From the NCBI GenBank assembly GCA_900316995.1, contig ONEZ01000014.1, positions 1-55,776 on the forward strand: a DNA stretch of 55,776 nucleotides, read 5' to 3'. Under the pieces are notes generated by a model. It worked only from the letters and a program-made list of their open reading frames with translations. It had not been told where the DNA came from and did not search any database. The translations under genes and the position numbers were made by a program. The stretch comes from an uncultured Bacteroidales bacterium (lineage in GTDB: Bacteria > Bacteroidota > Bacteroidia > Bacteroidales > Paludibacteraceae). Shown piece by piece: positions 25,398 through 55,750 of the stretch; position 1 is the first letter of the stretch; each line of letters begins with the position of its first letter.

Positions 25398-27011
25398 ATG
25401 GCTAACTTAGATTTAACAAAGTACGGCATCACTGGTTCCACAGTGATTGCCCACAATCCTTCTTATGAGGAGCTTTTCAAGGCTGAGACATGTTCATGCC
25501 TTGAGGGTTATGAGAAGGGACAGGAGACAGAACTTGGTGCGGTAAATGTAATGACTGGTATCTTTACAGGTCGTTCTCCTAAAGACAAATACATCGTTGA
25601 CAACGATGAGAGTCACAATAACGTATGGTGGACTTCTGATGCCTACAAGAATGATAACCACCCAATGAGCGAGGCCGTTTGGAATGAAGTTAAAGAGATA
25701 GCCAAGAAGGAGCTTTCTAACAAGAAACTTTATGTAGTTGACGCATTCTGCGGAGCTAACGAGGCTACACGTCTTGCAGTACGTTTCATTGTTGAGGTTG
25801 CATGGCAGGCTCACTTTGTTGAGAACATGTTCATTCGTCCTACAGAGGAGGAGCTTAAGAACTTTGAGCCTAACTTTGTTATTTACAATGCTTCTAAGGC
25901 TAAGGTTGAGAACTATAAGGAGCTTGGTCTTAACTCTGAGACTTGCGTTGCTTTCAACACAAAGAGCCGTGAGCAGGTTATTATTAACACATGGTACGGT
26001 GGTGAGATGAAGAAAGGTATGTTCTCTATGCAGAACTACTATCTTCCACTTCAGGGCATAGCTTCAATGCACTGCTCTGCTAACACTGATATGGAGGGTA
26101 AGAACACAGCTATCTTCTTTGGCCTTTCTGGTACAGGTAAGACTACACTTTCTACAGATCCTAAGCGTCTTCTCATCGGTGATGACGAGCACGGATGGGA
26201 TGATGAGGGCGTGTTCAACCTTGAGGGTGGCTGCTACGCTAAGGTTATCAATCTTTCTAAGGAGAATGAGCCTGACATCTACGGCGCTATCAAGCGTGAC
26301 GCTCTTCTTGAGAACGTAACTGTTGACGCTGCAGGTAAGATTGATTTCAACGATAAGTCAGTTACTGAGAACACTCGTGTTTCTTATCCTATTGACCACA
26401 TTAAGAATGTAGTTAAGAAAGTTAACGGTAAGAGCGCAGGTCCTGCTGCTAAGAATGTTATATTCCTTTCTGCAGATGCATTTGGCGTATTGCCTCCTGT
26501 ATCAATCCTTACTCCAGAGCAGACCAAGTACTACTTCCTGAGCGGCTTTACAGCTAAGCTTGCCGGTACAGAGCGTGGTATCACAGAGCCTACTCCTACA
26601 TTCTCTGCTTGCTTTGGTCAGGCATTCCTTGAGCTGCACCCAACAAAGTACGCTGAGGAGCTTGTAAAGAAGATGGAGAAATCAGGTGCTAAGGCATACC
26701 TTGTAAACACTGGCTGGAACGGAACTGGCAAACGTATCTCAATTCCTGATACTCGTGGTATCATCGATGCTATCCTTGACGGCTCTATCCTCAAGGCTGA
26801 GACCAAGAAGATTCCTTACTTTGACTTTGAGGTTCCAACAGCTCTTCCAAACGTTAACCCTGCAATTCTTGATCCACGTGACACTTACAAGTGCGCATGT
26901 GAGTGGGAGGAGAAAGCAAAAGACCTTGCTGCCCGCTTCATCAAGAACTTTGCAAAATATGAGGGTAACGAGGCTGGTAAGGCTCTTGTTGCCGCTGGTC
27001 CAAAACTATAA
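25398..27011 (+). CDS. pckA: phosphoenolpyruvate carboxykinase (ATP type)
   Basis: 537 residues. In anaerobic Bacteroidales the enzyme runs toward oxaloacetate, fixing CO2 and making ATP on the way to succinate. The family motif [14 protein letters not shown] (kinase-1a loop, near residue 240) is followed by [20 protein letters not shown], which carries the metal- and PEP-binding acids. The N-terminal [20 protein letters not shown] includes the substrate-binding R. An exact promoter precedes it and a strong terminator follows, so it is monocistronic. Confidence 0.97.
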
Positions 27012-49800: not shown

Positions 49801-49814
49801 GTACCTCCGAGGGG
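49801..49814. repeat. left attachment-site copy
   Basis: GTACCTCCGAGGGG, identical to 55678-55691. It copies the last 13 bases of tRNA-Arg plus one flanking base; sequence beyond differs (GGTCAA against AATCGA). Confidence 0.9.
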
Positions 49815-49930
49815 GGTCAAATTATTACATTTGCTTATATCAAAGAAATATGGAAATGCAGAATAAAGGCAAATGAAGCACTTCTGATGATGCTGCAAAG
49901 ATATAATAAAATGTAATAGAAAGCAAAAAA

Positions 49931-49953
49931 AGTTTCAGCAGTGTTTCAGTAAT
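49931..49953. repeat. left arm-type repeat pair (GTTTCAG motifs)
   Basis: AGTTTCAGCA then GTGTTTCAGTAAT: two spaced copies of TTTCAG(C/T)A. A matching pair stands at 55597-55619 near the right end, and an inverted copy (TTACTGAAAT) overlaps the integrase ATG at 49995-50004. They look like integrase or excisionase binding sites. Confidence 0.65.
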
Positions 49954-49975
49954 ACAGAAAGATTCATTATATTTG
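49944..49975 (+). promoter_or_regulatory. integrase promoter overlapping an arm repeat
   Basis: -7 box TATATTTG at 49968-49975; TTTC at 49944-49947, 20 bases upstream, serves as -33 with one mismatch and is part of the second GTTTCAG copy. Integrase binding could therefore repress its own gene. Confidence 0.55.
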
Positions 49976-50001
49976 TAGTGGATATTAAATGAATTACTGA
50001 A

Positions 50002-51399
50002 ATGGCTATTACTATCAACTTTGAAATTAACAACAGGGCTAATTCTTCTGGCCACTATGTTGTAATGCTGAGGCTCACTCAGGATAGGAAATTAAAAAGA
50101 ATCAAGACATCAATTCAGCTTAAGAGTAAATCTGATTGGAATGCAAAGAAGCAGTTAGTCAGGTCTTCTGAGCCTAATTATGAAGTATGGAACACTAACC
50201 TTCAGGACTTGAAAGAGGCCTACAGAAAGAATGCTGAGGCTCTTAAATCTGCTGGCAGATACACTATTGAGTGCCTTATGGCAAATGTTCAGTCTTCTGA
50301 AAAGACTTCATCCTTTTTGACTTATGCAGATGATAGAATTAAGGAGCTTAAAACATCAGGCAATTATCATAACTACAAAAAATACAACAATTTTTATAAT
50401 AAGCTGACAGACTTTCTTAAGAATGACTGCAAGAAGGATGATTTGTTATTTTCAGAACTAACTCCTGCCTTGCTGAATAAATTTGACACTTATTTACATA
50501 CATTACACAATGATAGGCAGCCAGACAGGCTGCTTCATCAGAACACTATTCAAGTTGCATTTAAGGTGTTTAAAGCATTGGTAAATAGGGCTATTAATGA
50601 TGATAAAGGCTATTTAACAATTGATGAAAGCCCTTTCAAGGTGTTTAAATTCTCTGGCATCAAAACTTGCAAGGAGAAGCTATATAAATCAGAAATACAA
50701 GCTATCAAGTCACTTGATTTGAAAGAAGGCAGCTTAATATGGCATTGCAGAAATTACTTCCTATTCAGCCTTTATTGTGCTGGCATAAGGTGTGCTGACT
50801 TCTGCTGCCTGAAGTGGTGTAATGTTATTGAGAATGGCAATAGGTTAAAGTATGTGATGCAGAAAAATAATAAAGAGAGAGATTTGCCTCTTATTGATGC
50901 AGCAAAGGCCATCCTAGAACATTATATAAGGCCAGAAGCAAAACCTTCAGACTACATTTTTCCACTACTTAACAATGATGCTGAATTTGTAAAAACTGAG
51001 TTTAATGTTATGCCTGCTGATAAAAAGAAAATGCTTTTTGATGCGATAGGTGCAAAGAATGCCCTTATCAATAAGGAGTTAAAAAAGATTGGTAAGCTGG
51101 CAGGCATTGAAAAAAATATTTCCTTCCATATAAGCAGGCACTCCTTCGCAAATATGGCAAAAGAGAAAGGAGTTGATGCTAGAATTATTCAGAGTCTTCT
51201 TGCACATTCTGAGTTAAGCACCACAGAAAGGTATATGGGGAGCTTTGATACTGATTCAAATGATAAGGCTTTAAGAGATGTTTTTGATAATTCTTCAGAT
51301 GTGGCTTCTGATACTGATGCACTGCTTCAGCAGCTGAAAAGTCTTGATGCTACATCATTGGCTGACCTGTTGAACAAACTTCAATCATCCAATAAATAA
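50002..51399 (+). CDS. tyrosine recombinase/integrase of the element
   Basis: 465 residues in the layout of Bacteroidota mobile-element integrases: an N-terminal arm-binding region (INFEINNRANSSGHYVVMLRL), a SAM-like core-binding domain (FLTYADDRIKELKTSGNYHN), and a catalytic domain with R in CAGIRCADFCCLKW (about residue 263), the H-x-x-R pair in FHISRHSFANMA (about 375), H in LLAHSELSTTERYMG and the nucleophile Y (about 410). It should catalyse integration at tRNA-Arg. Arg codons are only AGA/AGG, unlike host genes. The gene lies at the end away from the tRNA. An imperfect inverted repeat (51415-51448) follows it. Confidence 0.93.
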   Translation: MAITINFEINNRANSSGHYVVMLRLTQDRKLKRIKTSIQLKSKSDWNAKKQLVRSSEPNYEVWNTNLQDLKEAYRKNAEALKSAGRYTIECLMANVQSSEKTSSFLTYADDRIKELKTSGNYHNYKKYNNFYNKLTDFLKNDCKKDDLLFSELTPALLNKFDTYLHTLHNDRQPDRLLHQNTIQVAFKVFKALVNRAINDDKGYLTIDESPFKVFKFSGIKTCKEKLYKSEIQAIKSLDLKEGSLIWHCRNYFLFSLYCAGIRCADFCCLKWCNVIENGNRLKYVMQKNNKERDLPLIDAAKAILEHYIRPEAKPSDYIFPLLNNDAEFVKTEFNVMPADKKKMLFDAIGAKNALINKELKKIGKLAGIEKNISFHISRHSFANMAKEKGVDARIIQSLLAHSELSTTERYMGSFDTDSNDKALRDVFDNSSDVASDTDALLQQLKSLDATSLADLLNKLQSSNK

Positions 51400-51565
51400 A
51401 GCTGGCTCAGGAATGCAGAATTTGCCCTGTTTTCTGCCCAAATTCAGCAGGTAATTCTTCTGTTGTAGAAGTGTTCTGAACTTGAATTGGAGGCTTGCAA
51501 GGTGGCAAATAACAACACAGAGAATGTTTTTAAATATGATGTAAAAATACAAGAATTCTTATTAT
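51400..51565. other. short gap after the integrase with an imperfect hairpin
   Basis: GCAGAATTTG (51415-51424) and CAAATTCAGC (51439-51448) form a 10-bp stem with one mismatch; no U-run follows. No promoter of the TAnnTTTG type is visible ahead of the next gene. Confidence 0.4.
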
Positions 51566-52396
51566 ATGAAACTGAACATTATAGAGGCTGTTGAAGATTT
51601 TTCAGCCATTACAGAGAAGTGCAAAACTATCCTATCAAAGTATGATATCACACTTGAAGAACACAGGTACTTTGACCTTTTCAATATAGTTACTAAACTA
51701 TTCTTCAAGTATATAGATGTGAAGCATCCTGACAACATTAAACATAATGCATTAATGCTTACAAGCCTTTTTAAGGAAGCTAAAGATATCAGGATAAGTG
51801 GATATGTCAAGGGTGTTGGAGTAAAGAAATATAAGATTGAAAAAGGCCTTCAGGAGCTGCTTTGGCTTTTCTTGAATGACTATGTAATAAAAGCCTGCAA
51901 TTATAATTGTGACTATAAATGCAGTGAAGAACACAAAGTTTACTCTTTGGAGGCTTTTATATGTTACTTGGAGGCTCTGGAAAGCAACAAATTAAATTCT
52001 GAGGTTAAAGAGTATCAAAGGAATTATTTCAGCCCAAATCTTGATAATAAAAGTTATGTTTTGCCTGATGATATGCTAAAATCATTAATTGAATATGAGT
52101 CATTGCGAATTGGAAAGGTTAAGTCCTTAGCTGGTTATGGTGACAAGTTTATTCCATTGTATGGGTGGGCAGTGGAACAGATGCTGGCAAAACTACCTGA
52201 ATTGAATGGTCTGAACAAGACTCAGAGGCTCTGTCTTATTGGAGATATTTTGGAAGCTAACCATTGCTTCTCTGATGATATGTCTGAAACATGGAAGCTT
52301 GCTTCAAATGATGATAAGATGCATATAATTGACAACTGCTATAAAAGCTACAAAAATGCTTTGAAAAAAAACAAGAAGGCCTGCAAAGGCAAATAA
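51566..52396 (+). CDS. unknown element protein
   Basis: 276 residues, not recognised. Lys-rich and mostly helical by composition; a middle segment YNCDYKCSEEHKVYSLEAF has two cysteines four apart, and the end is a basic tail (YKNALKKNKKACKGK). Position after the integrase recalls the accessory protein of other small Bacteroidota elements, but I find no RteC, relaxase or toxin motif. It contains the only CGA arginine codon I noticed in the element (52106). A hairpin with a T-run follows. Confidence 0.7.
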   Translation: MKLNIIEAVEDFSAITEKCKTILSKYDITLEEHRYFDLFNIVTKLFFKYIDVKHPDNIKHNALMLTSLFKEAKDIRISGYVKGVGVKKYKIEKGLQELLWLFLNDYVIKACNYNCDYKCSEEHKVYSLEAFICYLEALESNKLNSEVKEYQRNYFSPNLDNKSYVLPDDMLKSLIEYESLRIGKVKSLAGYGDKFIPLYGWAVEQMLAKLPELNGLNKTQRLCLIGDILEANHCFSDDMSETWKLASNDDKMHIIDNCYKSYKNALKKNKKACKGK

Positions 52397-52417
52397 TTAT
52401 CTTCACATATAACTTAG

Positions 52418-52470
52418 AATCGTAAAAATGTGGTCTGAAAAATGGCTGATTTTTACGATTTGTTTTTTTT
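52418..52470. promoter_or_regulatory. 12-bp palindrome AATCGTAAAAAT, operator or terminator
   Basis: AATCGTAAAAAT (52418-52429) and its exact complement ATTTTTACGATT (52449-52460), 19 bases apart, then TGTTTTTTTT. The T-run allows a terminator reading for the upstream gene; the place just ahead of the HTH-gene promoter allows an operator. The two arms hold two of the seven CG pairs in the element. Confidence 0.6.
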
Positions 52471-52493
52471 GATTTTACTCAAATTCTCTCTAA

Positions 52494-52501
52494 TATATTT
52501 G
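52494..52501 (+). promoter_or_regulatory. -7 box of the HTH gene
   Basis: TATATTTG, full match. TTTG at 52468-52471 stands 22 bases upstream, slightly long. The likely transcript covers the remaining element genes. Confidence 0.5.
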
Positions 52502-52563
52502 CATCAGGAATCAGGACAAAAAAAGCAGTGTTGCAATTGGGATGCCTGATATATTAGAATAAT

Positions 52564-52878
52564 ATGAATAATACAGATTCAACAGGGAATGCCTCTCTTT
52601 CAATGGTGGTTATCCCTAAAAGTGTGTGGGAAGGACTTGCAAAAGATGTTCAAGAGGTCAAGTCCATTCTCACAAAGAAGGCAGAAGATGCTGTGAATAG
52701 TCAGTACATTGAATCTTCTGAGGTTAAAAAAATTTTGGGTGTTTCTCAAAAGACTTGGCAGAACTACAGAGATGAAAGAAGACTTCCATTTGTTCAATTT
52801 GGAAGGAAAATCTTTGTTAAGAGAGTGGACTTGGAATCTTTTATGGAGTCACACAAAATATGTTGCACTAATGGTTGA
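52564..52878 (+). CDS. excisionase-like helix-turn-helix protein
   Basis: 104 residues. After a charged N-terminal helix, the C-terminal half YIESSEVKKILGVSQKTW, then QNYRDERRLPFVQFGRKIFVKRVDLESFM, is a MerR-like winged HTH (HTH_17) as found in Xis-type directionality factors. It probably helps excision or regulates the element. It is the first gene after the AATCGTAAAAAT palindrome, whose symmetry suits binding by this protein (inference). Confidence 0.82.
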   Translation: MNNTDSTGNASLSMVVIPKSVWEGLAKDVQEVKSILTKKAEDAVNSQYIESSEVKKILGVSQKTWQNYRDERRLPFVQFGRKIFVKRVDLESFMESHKICCTNG

Positions 52879-52890
52879 AAGGGTATTAAA

Positions 52891-53403
52891 ATGAATAAAG
52901 ATTTTATCAATGCAACCAGACAGACTGCAATTTATAAGTTAAAAGAGGGTACTAAAGGCAGTTATTATTGGTTCAGTGGTTCAAGGTGCTTGCCTAATAG
53001 AATAAGCCTCAGCATTGGTGGTGAGTACTCAAAGGTTCAGAAGAAAGGAAGAAATTTGCAGGATGTTATTGCAGGGCAATTAATATCAACCTTTAAGGTT
53101 TGCGAGTCTTCTCCACTCAAAATGTTCAGGCCATACTGCTGTAGAACTCAGATTTGGCAGAAGGCAGAATATCCTGCCCTGTTTGGATATGGTACATTGG
53201 GCATAACTGGTGAGGATGGGAGAATTTTTGACACAAAAGATTTGATAGTGCTTAGGTGTAATTCAAATTGTGATATTGTAAAAGTGCATATCTTCAATGG
53301 CTTGGGTACTCCTGATGCAGTGCTTGATGTTATGGGCTTTGTGAATGAGCTGGAGAAAGGTGAGTTTGAGCAAGTGAGTATAAATCAGGAGGGCAGACTC
53401 TGA
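52891..53403 (+). CDS. unknown element protein before the replication gene
   Basis: 170 residues, not recognised. A Lys/Gly-rich start (KLKEGTKGSYYWFSGSRC), a cysteine-bearing middle (FRPYCCRTQIWQKAEYP) and a compact mixed alpha/beta end (VHIFNGLGTPDAVLDVMGF). It lies 12 bases after the HTH gene and 27 before the replication-like gene, so they are probably co-transcribed. Its size and place ahead of the replication gene allow a helper or DNA-binding role, but nothing shows it. Confidence 0.68.
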   Translation: MNKDFINATRQTAIYKLKEGTKGSYYWFSGSRCLPNRISLSIGGEYSKVQKKGRNLQDVIAGQLISTFKVCESSPLKMFRPYCCRTQIWQKAEYPALFGYGTLGITGEDGRIFDTKDLIVLRCNSNCDIVKVHIFNGLGTPDAVLDVMGFVNELEKGEFEQVSINQEGRL

Positions 53404-53415
53404 GCCTGCCCTCCT
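53388..53415 (+). terminator. hairpin over the stop of the 170-residue gene
   Basis: GGAGGGCAG (53388-53396) with CTGCCCTCC (53406-53414), 9-base loop containing the stop codon, followed by TTTGG. A strong stem without CG; may attenuate transcription into the replication gene. Confidence 0.65.
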
Positions 53416-53430
53416 TTGGATATTAAATGA

Positions 53431-54384
53431 ATGATGATAGATTTTATTTCTACTACCAAACATCTTGAAGGCAAAGATACTCCTTTTTTGGGAAATCTGC
53501 AATTTGTTTCAGGCAATAATTCAGGGTGGCTCACATTTGAAGCAGTGGGATGCAGGAGAATTAAAGTCCAATACAATGAGCATCTCAACATCTTGAAAGT
53601 TAGTGGGAGCATAATGTATTTTATGCAAGGCCATAACTTCAGCTATGACAGGAAACTATTTGTTCAAGGCATTCAATACTTATCAACAATATTAAAGGTT
53701 GGTGACCTGTGGTCTTCACAGGTTGCAGCCTTTGAGAATGGAGTTATTATGAATGTTCCACTTGCACCAAAAGACTACATCCAACATCATACAACATTGC
53801 AGGCTGAGAAGTTGAAAACTTATGAGAATTCAATTGATAGAGGCTACTTCAGGGGGTGGAGGGATAAGGATGTTTTTTTGAAAATGTATGATGTTAAGAA
53901 TAACTTCAAACATAAGCTCAGCAGGCAGGAAAAATCTGATATTGGCCTTCAGGATGATGCTCAATACCTCAAATTTGAAGCTCACTATATAAGGCCAGAA
54001 TGCCTCAACAAAGGCAGGATGATACTTCTTTCAGACTTGGTCTGTCCTGAGTGGGAGTCTGTGTTCAGTGAAGATTTGTATTTACAATATAAAAGACTTG
54101 TTCCTATGAAAACACTTATTGCACCAACAAACAAAAAAGATTTGTCTTCTGCTGATATTATTGCACTGACCTTTGCTGAAGAAGGCCTACAGGCTGGAAA
54201 GAGCATTGGTGACATTAAAAAGCTAATCTATAGCAGAATTGATGCTATCTCTGAGGATGTTCTTAATATCTATGATAAGAGAGCAAGGAAGGCGCAAATT
54301 AATGGGCTGCTGAAGAAGTTACAGGAAGCACCTGAGAGTAAATATGACCTTTGCAATAAGCTTGCATCAGCTTTGGAAGTTTAA
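53431..54384 (+). CDS. putative phage gene II/X-type replication initiator
   Basis: 317 residues. The order of conserved pieces matches II/X-family (Phage_CRI) proteins of Bacteroidota: an early VSGSIMYFMQGHNFS block, then LFVQGIQYLSTIL, VAAFENGVIMNVP, DYIQHH, VFLKMYDVKNNF (in place of F-Y-D-K), AQYLKFEAHYIRPECLNKG (R-x-E-x-R-like) and LYLQYKRL. Such proteins nick DNA and start rolling-circle replication of single-stranded phages and plasmids. I cannot identify the nicking tyrosine with certainty. If right, the element has a replicating single-stranded or plasmid stage. Another reading is a relaxase-like protein of a mobilizable element. Confidence 0.6.
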   Translation: MMIDFISTTKHLEGKDTPFLGNLQFVSGNNSGWLTFEAVGCRRIKVQYNEHLNILKVSGSIMYFMQGHNFSYDRKLFVQGIQYLSTILKVGDLWSSQVAAFENGVIMNVPLAPKDYIQHHTTLQAEKLKTYENSIDRGYFRGWRDKDVFLKMYDVKNNFKHKLSRQEKSDIGLQDDAQYLKFEAHYIRPECLNKGRMILLSDLVCPEWESVFSEDLYLQYKRLVPMKTLIAPTNKKDLSSADIIALTFAEEGLQAGKSIGDIKKLIYSRIDAISEDVLNIYDKRARKAQINGLLKKLQEAPESKYDLCNKLASALEV

Positions 54385-54478
54385 GGAGTATCTTCAGGGA
54401 AATCTCTTTTAGTAGTAATCAGAATGTATAAGAATTTTTATTATTAGTATGTATTTAAAATTTTTTTTTTTTTTAATT

Positions 54479-54934
54479 ATGAGTAAAGAAATGTTTTCAG
54501 AAGATTATTTAAAGCAGTATGGACTGACTCCACTTCAGGAGAAGTCTGTTAGTTTGCTAATGTCAGGTAAGAATATTTGTCAGGTGGCCTCTGAGTGTGG
54601 CCTGCCTGAAGAAACTATCCTTCAATGGCAGGGCTTAGTTTCTGTTCAGTGTTATAAAAACAGGCTTATGCAGAGGGCAAGAGGCCAAATGGAGTTTAGG
54701 CTGTCTTCTATGTATGAAGATGCATTGAAGGCCTTACAGGACTGCCTTAACTCTGAGAATGATTCTATCAGATTGAAAGCAGCCTCAGCAGTTGTTGAGA
54801 TGATTAATGCTCTGAAGATTGGTGGAACTGATGCAAGGAAGGAAATAAAGAGCCTATGTGAATACTCCATTGACACAATGAGAATGGACAGTCAGAAGTA
54901 TGCCCAGATGCTTAAGGAGAATGGGCTTGAATAG
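54479..54934 (+). CDS. phage-type HTH protein (phBC6A51/terminase-small-subunit-like)
   Basis: 151 residues from ATG 54479; the ten codons before it are translated T-run. LTPLQEKSVSLLMSGKNICQ, then VASECGLPEETILQWQ form an N-terminal helix-turn-helix of the kind seen in phage small terminase subunits and phBC6A51-like proteins. The rest is long helices (RLMQRARGQMEFRLSSMYE, SENDSIRLKAASAVVEMINAL). No large terminase is nearby, so DNA packaging is unlikely to be done alone; a satellite using a helper phage is one possibility, DNA-binding regulation another. Confidence 0.65.
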   Translation: MSKEMFSEDYLKQYGLTPLQEKSVSLLMSGKNICQVASECGLPEETILQWQGLVSVQCYKNRLMQRARGQMEFRLSSMYEDALKALQDCLNSENDSIRLKAASAVVEMINALKIGGTDARKEIKSLCEYSIDTMRMDSQKYAQMLKENGLE

Positions 54935-54985
54935 TTTTTAGACATCAGATTATTATCTTCACTAATTATTTAGGTTTAAAAACAG

Positions 54986-55570
54986 ATGGATAGAAAAAAG
55001 GTCTGTATAAACCATCTTATCAGTATCAATGCAGGAGCTATCCCTGATTTTATCAAGTATGGAGCTGGCACACTGAATTTAATATTCATTCAAAATAATG
55101 TTAAGTTAGTTGCTGCAATGCCTTTTGTGGTGAATCAGCCTAAACAGGTTGTTATATTTAATGTCAGGGATGCTGATGGTACTGAATCAAAAAGGGTGGT
55201 GCATTATAAGTTTCTGCCTTCAAATTTGGGTGCTGGTGAAGTGCCTTACTTTGTCTGTCCTGTATCTGGTGAGCTATGCAAAAAGCTGTTCCTGAAAGAT
55301 TCTTTTTTGCTGTCCAGAAAGGCATTCTGTCATTATTACAGAGTGCAGCATTTGAGCCATTCTCAAAGATTGTGGGATACTTACTACAGAGAATCTTCTC
55401 TGAAGAACAGAAAAAGATATTACAAGGGTAGGCTAACTCCTTTTGGCTTCAAGGTTATCAAAGAGAAGTATCAGTCAGAACAGGCATATAGGGAGCTATT
55501 ATTTGCCATTGCTGGTTCTTTGAAGTCAAGAAGTGGAAGGGCTGGAAGGTCAAAGAATGCAGGAAGATAG
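54986..55570 (+). CDS. unknown element protein with cysteine/basic C-terminal half
   Basis: 194 residues. The first 70 are beta-like (FIKYGAGTLNLIFIQNNVKL). The middle FVCPVSGELCKKLFLKD, then CHYYRVQHLSHSQRLWDTYY has the layout of small proteins common on Bacteroidota and proteobacterial mobile elements (C-P-x-C-G-x-x-x-x-K-L-Y and C-x-x-C-x-x-L-x-Y-x-S-Q), but most of the zinc-type cysteines are replaced. The C-terminus is very basic (RSGRAGRSKNAGR). Probably nucleic-acid binding; function unknown. Confidence 0.65.
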   Translation: MDRKKVCINHLISINAGAIPDFIKYGAGTLNLIFIQNNVKLVAAMPFVVNQPKQVVIFNVRDADGTESKRVVHYKFLPSNLGAGEVPYFVCPVSGELCKKLFLKDSFLLSRKAFCHYYRVQHLSHSQRLWDTYYRESSLKNRKRYYKGRLTPFGFKVIKEKYQSEQAYRELLFAIAGSLKSRSGRAGRSKNAGR

Positions 55571-55596
55571 GCCTTTTTTACTCAAAAAATATGAAA

Positions 55597-55619
55597 AGTT
55601 TCAGTAATGTTTCAGTAAT
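55597..55619. repeat. right arm-type repeat pair (GTTTCAG motifs)
   Basis: AGTTTCAGTAAT followed by GTTTCAGTAAT, the counterpart of 49931-49953 at the other end of the element, in the same orientation. Confidence 0.65.
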
Positions 55620-55677
55620 GTACATTCAGAAGCACCTCTTAATTGCTGAATATCAATAAATTATATCATCTTCTCTT

Positions 55678-55691
55678 GTACCTCCGAGGGG
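55678..55691. repeat. right attachment-site copy within tRNA-Arg
   Basis: GTACCTCCGAGGGG, identical to 49801-49814; the last 13 bases are the tRNA 3' end (T arm and acceptor strand). Confidence 0.9.
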
Positions 55692-55750
55692 AATCGAACC
55701 CCTATCTAAAGTTTAGGAAACTTCTATTCTATCCGTTGAACTACAGAGGC
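55679..55750 (-). tRNA. tRNA-Arg(CCT), restored integration target
   Basis: 72 bases on the minus strand. Acceptor GCCTCTG pairs with CGGAGGT (with wobbles), D arm GTTC/GAAT-type, anticodon arm GAAGT-TTCCTAA-ACTTT with anticodon CCT, T arm AGGGG-TTCGATT-CCCCT, discriminator A, no encoded CCA. The anticodon stem starts with a G-T pair. CCT reads AGG, the very codon the integrated element uses heavily. The gene stays complete after insertion because the element carries the matching 3' end. Confidence 0.93.

Follow-up and report, generated by a model that had tools for sequence, protein, structure and literature searches.

A small integrated element at a Bacteroidota tRNA gene is nearly free of CpG and belongs to a CpG-poor family

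The DNA analysed here (the window, a stretch of 55,776 nucleotides from a Bacteroidales bacterium) carries an integrated element nearly free of CpG, and this depletion is a family trait of these elements. The desert is confirmed as real, and it spans the whole integrated element up to its att borders. Between the two att copies (49815-55677, 5863 bp), seven CpG were counted, at 51044, 51147, 52106, 52421, 52456, 53103 and 54293, compared to 186 expected, a rho of 0.04, against a CpG rho of 0.71 for the window's host part. The preliminary description of this DNA had listed the same seven positions, which our recount matched exactly, and an expectation above one hundred, for which base composition gave the figure of 186. 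In 2000 base shuffles of the element, the mean was 185.9 CpG and the minimum 148, and the lowest-CpG stretch of 5863 bp in the host part holds 178. The features of the element and its integration site are as follows.

49801..49814, no strand: attL, a 14-bp copy GTACCTCCGAGGGG of the tRNA-Arg 3' end
49815..55677, no strand: CpG desert, coextensive with the whole integrated element, 5863 bp
50002..51399, plus strand: tyrosine integrase (Phage_integrase PF00589, E 1.2e-22; Phage_int_SAM_5 PF13102, E 5.2e-17)
51566..52396, plus strand: g2, 276 aa, without Pfam match
52418..52460, no strand: inverted repeat AATCGTAAAAAT / ATTTTTACGATT, then a T-rich run
52564..52878, plus strand: HTH_17 excisionase/AlpA-like regulator (PF12728, E 2.4e-11; phrog_66, E 1.2e-7)
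52891..53403, plus strand: g4, 170 aa, without Pfam or PHROG match
53431..54384, plus strand: rolling-circle replication initiator-like Rep, 317 aa, by fold match
54449..54934, plus strand: terminase-small-subunit (TerS)-like HTH protein, a weak match (phrog_2538, E 5.6e-4)
54986..55570, plus strand: g7, 194 aa, with a homologue in L005/L019 at 27 percent
55678..55750, minus strand: tRNA-Arg(CCT), the integration site, with its 3' end (55678-55691) as attR

The coincidence of desert and element, claimed before, is borne out by sharp edges at both att copies. On the left, CpG is present up to 49808, inside the att copy, and the next one is at 51044; on the right, the final CpG of the element, at 54293, is followed by that at 55685, inside the att copy and tRNA gene. 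Bases 25561-25620 of the host do hold the three CG described, and the reverse order is indeed frequent in the element (GpC 277 versus 186 expected). Arginine is encoded by AGR in 73 cases and by CGN in one, and NCG codons number two, in agreement with the reported use of AGA/AGG and avoidance of NCG. At codon boundaries, 2 CpG were observed versus 68 in synonymous shuffles (300 shuffles, minimum 51), and the element's proteins recoded with GC-matched host codon usage contained 128 CpG (300 runs, minimum 102) versus 5 observed. The codon-matched control proposed in the preliminary description thus gave no similarly low CpG, and the depletion stands. Expected counts, base shuffles and codon controls together rule out chance or base composition as its cause.

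No primase was matched among the seven window proteins (Pfam, PHROG), and no structural virion genes were recognisable among them by Pfam, PHROG or the synteny of relatives. Homologues of the TerS-like protein in L013, L014 and L016 match TerS families at E 1.5e-9 to 2.4e-9. A gene stands at the place of g2 in several relatives, with hardly conserved sequence, and g4 is conserved directly upstream of rep (alignment of 13 sequences); L018 was left out of the g4 alignment and L013 out of the integrase alignment, as the coordinates used contained a stop, both being kept in other comparisons. The 12-bp inverted repeat at 52418..52460 harbors two of the seven CpG, one per arm, and with its T-rich run may serve as g2 terminator. 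By eye, L012, L013 and L014 have comparable hairpins, again with CpG in each arm.

Over most of its length, Rep adopts the rolling-circle initiator fold of RepD/RepDE (PDB 4cwc, 4cwe, 4cij) at about 10 percent identity, and by sequence it has no meaningful match to solved structures. This fold makes a single-stranded stage plausible. The fold is common to RepD/RepDE and the window's Rep; the latter sits in integrated DNA, and its catalysis is putative. A link to Phage_CRI (Pfam E 0.11) is unproven, since the filamentous-phage gene II protein was not among the fold matches. Rep had no match among phages or among plasmids (threshold E 1e-5), and a pattern search of viral_contigs gave no confirmed match for the window's Rep or TerS.

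All 16 relatives found in genome_contigs are CpG-poor (rho 0.00-0.64), and the flanks of the 15 with any flank have rho 0.65-1.03. The preliminary description had also asked how homologous elements behave: the related ones are CpG-poor too, and no intact homologue with normal CpG appeared. Eleven elements are complete (rho 0.03-0.51), and all eleven have att repeats of 13-23 bp at tRNA genes, the window's being 14 bp; a TerS-like gene occurs in 7 of the 11, including the L025/L026 type, called TerS by synteny only. The depletion is shared by a congener's copy that is 94 percent identical along 4.5 kb and truncated at the contig end. In 14 of 14 elements tested, boundary CpG fell under all 300 synonymous shuffles. 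The highest value, 0.64, belongs to L023, a single decayed copy with no family integrase close by and a stop in Rep.

The trait does not extend to Bacteroidota mobile DNA at large. CpG poverty as a property of all mobile DNA in these hosts was rejected, as 28 of 28 other PF13102 integrase loci (rho 0.70-1.33) and all 15 prophage contigs whose integrases were the nearest found in viral_contigs (rho 0.66-1.10) are CpG-normal; since those nearest integrases lie in CpG-normal contigs, the trait is not carried by the integrase lineage either. Nor does it belong to TerS-bearing satellites generally: L225, L226 and L227, related satellite-like loci with another Rep and the same TerS type, have rho 1.21, 0.74 and 0.62. 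Separately, a CpG-poor phage contig (L277, rho 0.33) was observed in a congener's genome. None of its proteins significantly matches the element or the CpG-poor phage group described below, and the contig may be a binning error.

To our mind the leading account, held tentatively and at a little under an even chance, is that the desert marks a minimal phage-satellite-like element of Bacteroidota from which CpG was removed by selection through restriction-type nucleases. Judging from gene content, the element would excise from the tRNA-Arg gene by means of its integrase and HTH excisionase, replicate by rolling circle through Rep, as the fold also suggests, and be packaged into a helper phage particle by its own TerS-like protein. 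During the mobile phase, on entry into new cells and copying in infected ones, CpG-containing DNA would be attacked by restriction-type nucleases. A genome of 4-9 kb could afford the loss of targets, largely through synonymous change, and the attacked contexts would vary by lineage, so that some elements keep CCGG, GCGC or CCGA and the window's almost none. The findings suggest a CpG-directed threat that the elements meet during movement.

Residual CpG bears on this account, as its permitted contexts differ sharply from element to element. In L022, CCGG makes up 43 of 67 CpGs; in L021, GCGC makes up 32 of 95, and TCGA and CCGG are at 0. Additional palindromes are lost in L014 (GGCC 0 versus 13.3 expected, flank 63 versus 69; CCWGG 0 versus 7.8, flank 39 versus 44.7) and in L021 (AGCT 1 versus 18.5, flank 29 versus 32.9; GGCC 0 versus 9.9, flank 51 versus 48.6), in a comparison that left out the flanks of L013, L015 and L016. 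The GGCC loss of L019 is partly common to its flank (5 versus 12.3). Element-specific contexts, together with the extra palindrome loss in L014 and L021, point to a restriction-like pressure, and escape from CG restriction or sensing, the second cause proposed in the preliminary description, is best supported as a class, though no CG-directed enzyme was identified.

In the window's element, each of the ten NCGN contexts is almost empty, whether palindromic or not. Apart from CpG, the words it clearly avoids are GATC and CTAG, and the host shows the same avoidance (GATC 18 versus 90, CTAG 2 versus 61); CATG, at 1 versus 24 by a Markov expectation, is at 1 versus 5.7 and within the shuffles. L022 shows no palindrome loss except that of CTAG, which is common to its flank. 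Restriction avoidance beyond CpG is therefore unsupported in the window's copy and in L022. Plain avoidance of 4-bp palindromes was rejected as the whole cause in the window, since non-palindromic CpG contexts are equally empty and the GATC/CTAG loss is common to the host. We know of no restriction enzyme with bare CG as its target, which, with all ten contexts emptied, counts against a restriction reading.

Tailed phages are another possible source of the pressure. A gene common to L025, L026 and L027 has 173 relatives in IMG/VR, and among the 80 of these listed, 66 lie in contigs with rho below 0.35, whereas a rho of at most about 0.35 was seen in 4 of 80 control phage contigs (viral relatives were taken among the matches listed, 80 of 173 and 80 of 192). 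Two contigs of 32 kb have this gene immediately before that of the terminase large subunit. One group of phages that carries a related packaging gene is thus itself CpG-poor, so a pressure imposed by the helper is a live rival: a CpG-directed nuclease, or something similar, of CpG-poor tailed phages would destroy host DNA during infection, and phage and satellite would both escape by lacking CpG. Taken together, these phages are depleted of CpG whatever its context, with other palindromes little reduced and CGN in 1036 of 6772 arginine codons. However, they are essentially one group (single linkage at 80 percent puts 75 of 79 TerS-type proteins into one cluster) within which rho spans 0.08-1.27, and no CpG nuclease was recognised among their scanned proteins, a minority of genes. 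The nuclease and methylase matches there were to HNH, a RecE-like exonuclease, an endonuclease family and an N6/N4 methylase. The L026 TerS-type gene had no match in named phages. The lack, by pattern search, of a confirmed relative of the window's TerS in viral_contigs also speaks against the helper, which we regard as a rather unlikely origin of the pressure. The same phages show little avoidance of GATC, GGCC or CCWGG, an observation that, with the replacement of lost C mainly by T, runs against a restriction reading.

An improbable alternative is mutation, in which the mobile form would have its CpG cytosines methylated (or edited) and then lose them to deamination, the chromosome being spared since the process hits only excised or infecting DNA, or acts in other hosts. 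Consistent with this, the C lost before G at fourfold sites is replaced mainly by T, a test that separates selection and deamination poorly. The TpG/CpA excess that the preliminary description suggested looking for is present and also fits mutation, both standing at 1.31 in the element and at 1.22 and 1.14 in the host part. C5 methyltransferase (PF00145), likewise to be sought in carriers, was detected in 5 of the 16 genomes, those of the CpG-poor L024 (Bacteroidetes bacterium UKL13-3, 9 matches) and L025 among them, with two C5 methylases in G696, the carrier of L022; it was not found in the other 11, including the window's host G000 (83 percent complete). A phage-borne C5 methylase was rejected for the CpG-poor phages, since only 2 of 11 phage records carry one, one of the two being CpG-normal; PF00145 was not found in 8 of 9 CpG-poor phage records, possibly fragments. 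Non-coding parts are CpG-poorer than the whole element in L019 and L026, but not in the window's element, L024 or L025, and the sharply permitted contexts that vary among relatives also oppose mutation. In the five CpG-poorest copies, CGN accounts for 2 of 215 arginine codons versus 204 of 350 in 14 AT-rich control loci. Deamination in these codons would alter the protein, yet their loss is as complete as that of silent CpGs, which favours selection over deamination. Past CpG methylation and deamination, proposed first in the preliminary description, is therefore not favoured, the adjoining DNA not being comparably depleted; of the single-stranded editing proposed third, the stage is plausible from the Rep fold, but the arginine codons argue against editing alone.

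Very unlikely is that no agent continues to act and the composition was inherited from a CpG-poor ancestral genome, slowly ameliorating towards each host: low CpG does accompany the Rep module in relatives with as little as about 26 percent identity, and the decayed L023 has the highest value, but two distinct regions of the Rep tree hold near-zero values (the window; L024/L025/L027), at protein divergences where silent sites would be long saturated, so that CpG would be expected to have come back had the pressure ceased.

That restriction sites of 4-6 bp are avoided is already known. A family of small integrative elements that has shed nearly every copy of a dinucleotide, while the adjoining hosts retain it, indicates a strong, lasting pressure, and we can name no defence that accounts for it. 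We consider it possible, if unlikely, that Bacteroidota and their phages harbour a new CpG-directed attack on foreign or host DNA, either a defence or a host-shredding phage weapon, with the bare dinucleotide as target and lineage-specific exempt contexts, which satellites and some phages survive by being CpG-free. If so, a missing two-letter word, and not modification, would distinguish self from non-self. A testable question is thereby raised, namely, what attacks CpG in Bacteroidota cells. CpG far under that of the flanks also provides a composition marker: it picks out such elements together with the precise limits of each, and possibly the helper phages as well.

The element can be set beside known systems. 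It combines att-bounded, site-specific integration with an integrase and an AlpA/excisionase-type regulator, as satellites do. We found no report of CpG-free satellites in the titles and abstract openings covered, which included few subscription journals. Charybdis elements were set aside, having different genes and marine, archaeal hosts (PMC12324425). Phage-inducible chromosomal minimalist islands (PICMI) of Vibrionaceae carry a DUF3987-type primase and Fis and have been shown in virus particles, and their model accepts PF12728 (PMC10803314). The window's element resembles them as a very small integrated satellite with integrase and AlpA-type regulator (PF12728) and without capsid-remodelling genes; it differs in its rolling-circle-like Rep, TerS-like gene, Bacteroidota host and CpG desert, and its mobilisation is a prediction. 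With PICIs/SaPIs it has in common specific att sites, a terminal integrase, a regulator, a replication gene and, in some members, TerS (a weak match in the window's element), whereas PICIs carry a primase and replication initiator (pri/rep) and no primase was recognised in the window's element; the available portion of that source makes no mention that we found of CpG depletion in PICIs (PMC6092414). Small plasmids are reported to avoid restriction targets by sequence change, mainly 6-bp targets (PMC10359461). Both are small mobile DNAs that lose targets; in the elements CpG lies under codon-preserving shuffles and under the host level, and nearly a whole dinucleotide has been removed.

The integrated element at the tRNA-Arg gene (49815 to 55677, between the two att copies) contains 7 CpG dinucleotides compared with 186 expected, and all seven lie where the preliminary description had placed them. 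The first 49,814 bases of the window hold 1,795 CpGs versus 2,525 expected, an observed/expected ratio from base composition (rho) of 0.71, and host stretches of the element's length within the window carry at least 178 each. Base-shuffled versions of the element never fell below 148 CpGs in 2,000 trials. The desert also withstood the codon-matched control proposed in that description: only 2 CpGs cross codon boundaries, versus a mean of 68 after synonymous shuffling (minimum of 300 shuffles, 51), and recoding the element's proteins with GC-matched host codon usage predicted 128 CpGs versus 5 seen. CGN accounts for 1 of its 74 Arg codons. Two of the seven CpGs occupy the arms of an inverted repeat at 52418 to 52460 and, since similar hairpins were seen by eye in three other loci (L012, L013, and L014), look to have been kept for function.

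Next, relatives were sought with the Rep protein. Counting the window's genome, Rep was found in 2 of 16 genomes of the genus, 3 of 300 of the family, and 4 of 393 of the order (two-row profile); it was also found at 16 loci of genome_contigs, five of which (L012, L017, L019, L022, and L023) duplicate loci reached by another route. The measured module was CpG poor at 16 of 16 loci, with rho from 0.00 (L025 and L027) to 0.64 (L023, a decayed copy), and the flanks of the 15 loci having any gave 0.65 to 1.03. The whole elements bounded by att copies were as follows.

Whole att-bounded elements and their rho
49815 to 55677, forward-strand numbering, the window's element: 0.04
L025: 0.03
L024: 0.10
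L026: 0.16
L019: 0.25
L014: 0.26
L015: 0.32
L022: 0.38
L016: 0.42
L021: 0.44
L020: 0.51

Integration sites were tRNA-Arg, Leu, Ala, Phe, and Glu, and near-zero rho occupies two places on the Rep tree. Carriers are named as Bacteroidales (one from roe-deer omasum), Mariniphaga, Dysgonomonas, other Bacteroidetes, and a Chitinophaga MAG; the 5.95-kb contig L013 sits in a Clostridia bin, perhaps by misassignment. L020 (6280 to 15297), the complete copy with the least CpG loss, has grown to 9 kb and carries an 818-residue protein, TPR-like by eye, and other cargo. Among 30 PF13102 integrase loci from relatives, the two lowest rho values belong to the window's element and a congener's copy, and the remaining 28 range from 0.70 to 1.33; 15 viral contigs with related integrases gave 0.66 to 1.10. 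Overall, the dinucleotide desert is real and sharp, and common to every relative found of this phage-satellite-like element.

Deamination of a CGN codon is never silent, so a purely mutational process combined with purifying selection should retain CGN. In the five CpG-poorest copies, CGN made up 2 of 215 Arg codons, compared with 204 of 350 in 14 AT-rich control loci and 1,050 of 1,672 in L258 to L272. This loss matches that at silent sites, which favors selection on CpG itself rather than mutation. Selection against CpG during the mobile phase is our best reading of the desert. A restriction-type attack on CpG in that phase would select CpG out of the elements; such an attack, by a putative enzyme, is the leading though tentative candidate for the selecting force.

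The residual CpGs are distributed nonrandomly by context. The window's element has GCGA 4, ACGA 2, GCGC 1, and no others; L021 has GCGC 32, GCGA 23, and ACGC 14, with TCGA, CCGG, and ACGG at 0; and in each of L013 to L020 CCGA is commonest, with ACGT, ACGG, and ACGC rare. CCGG makes up 43 of the 67 CpGs of L022, where 5.6 were expected (7.7-fold; flank ratio, 2.9). By codon shuffles, GGCC was absent from L014 and L015 (13.3 and 14.3 expected), as was CCWGG (7.8 and 10.2 expected), and the L014 flanks retain both; AGCT and GGCC were lost in L021 and retained in its flanks. The same shuffles revealed no element-specific palindrome loss in the window's element or L022. Avoidance of GATC and CTAG is common to elements and hosts. 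In host DNA of the window (1 to 49000), CTAG occurs 2 times versus 61 and GATC 18 versus 90 by codon shuffle, and among CpG contexts TCGA (0.12) and the remaining CGA ones (0.34 to 0.39) are avoided. The pressure reads as restriction-like, with a family-wide CpG part and variable losses of other words.

Alternatively, the selection could originate from the helper phage, which we consider doubtful. IMG/VR contains 173 relatives of the TerS-type gene of L025 to L027; rho for the 80 contigs among the matches listed was below 0.35 in 66, above 0.7 in 9, and between in 5, and in two 32-kb contigs the gene lies immediately upstream of the terminase large subunit, so the probable helpers of such satellites are often CpG poor themselves. 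However, single linkage at 80 percent joins 75 of the 79 TerS-type proteins into a single group that includes CpG-normal phages, which limits the weight of this evidence. No CpG nuclease was recognized among the phage genes scanned. A PP-loop ATPase-like gene near and upstream of TerS was observed in 54 of the 66 CpG-poor versus 0 of the 9 CpG-normal contigs (L069, L094, L131, and others), accompanied by a glycosyltransferase-like and at times also a methyltransferase gene; these possibly represent DNA modification, an association confounded by relatedness and contig size.

Deamination is less likely, as CGN was lost equally to silent sites. Counting against the selection reading, C lost before G mainly becomes T, a change both models permit, and the noncoding parts of L019 and L026 are CpG poorer than the whole element, but those of the window's element, L024, and L025 are not. 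CpG methyltransferases had been suggested as worth seeking in carriers; the C5 methyltransferase family PF00145 was found in 5 of the 16 carrier genomes searched (those of L013, L014, L022, L024, and L025) and not in the window's genome or G040. Among the causes the preliminary description had offered, escape from CG-targeting restriction is tentatively favored over methylation and deamination.

Turning to other mobile DNA, satellite-like elements with another Rep and a related TerS gave rho values of 1.21 (L225), 0.74 (L226), and 0.62 (L227). These are a sister kind of element, with an integrase, a TerS of the window's type, and a larger Rep (420 to 465 residues, starting MIDFI), in which CpG loss is not strong; L225 avoids GATC (0 versus 7.5) and GANTC (1 versus 9.7). 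Phage contigs with Terminase_2-type TerS (80 among the matches listed) had a median rho of 0.90, with three at 0.01 to 0.05 and one at 0.35. The phage contig L277, from a congener genome (G131, contig C160), has a rho of 0.33 over 16.7 kb, lacks CCGG, CCGC, and GGCC, and has ACGC and GCGC in abundance; the CpG loss here is context specific, in an unrelated phage that is possibly misbinned. Finally, the IMG/VR phage contigs L206, L213, and L216 have rho values of 0.01 to 0.05. L206 and L216 have near-identical proteins in common and appear Bacillota-like by eye. Pooled, the three contigs lack AGCT, CTAG, GATC, GGCC, CCWGG, and GGNCC altogether, a restriction-type word loss more thorough still.
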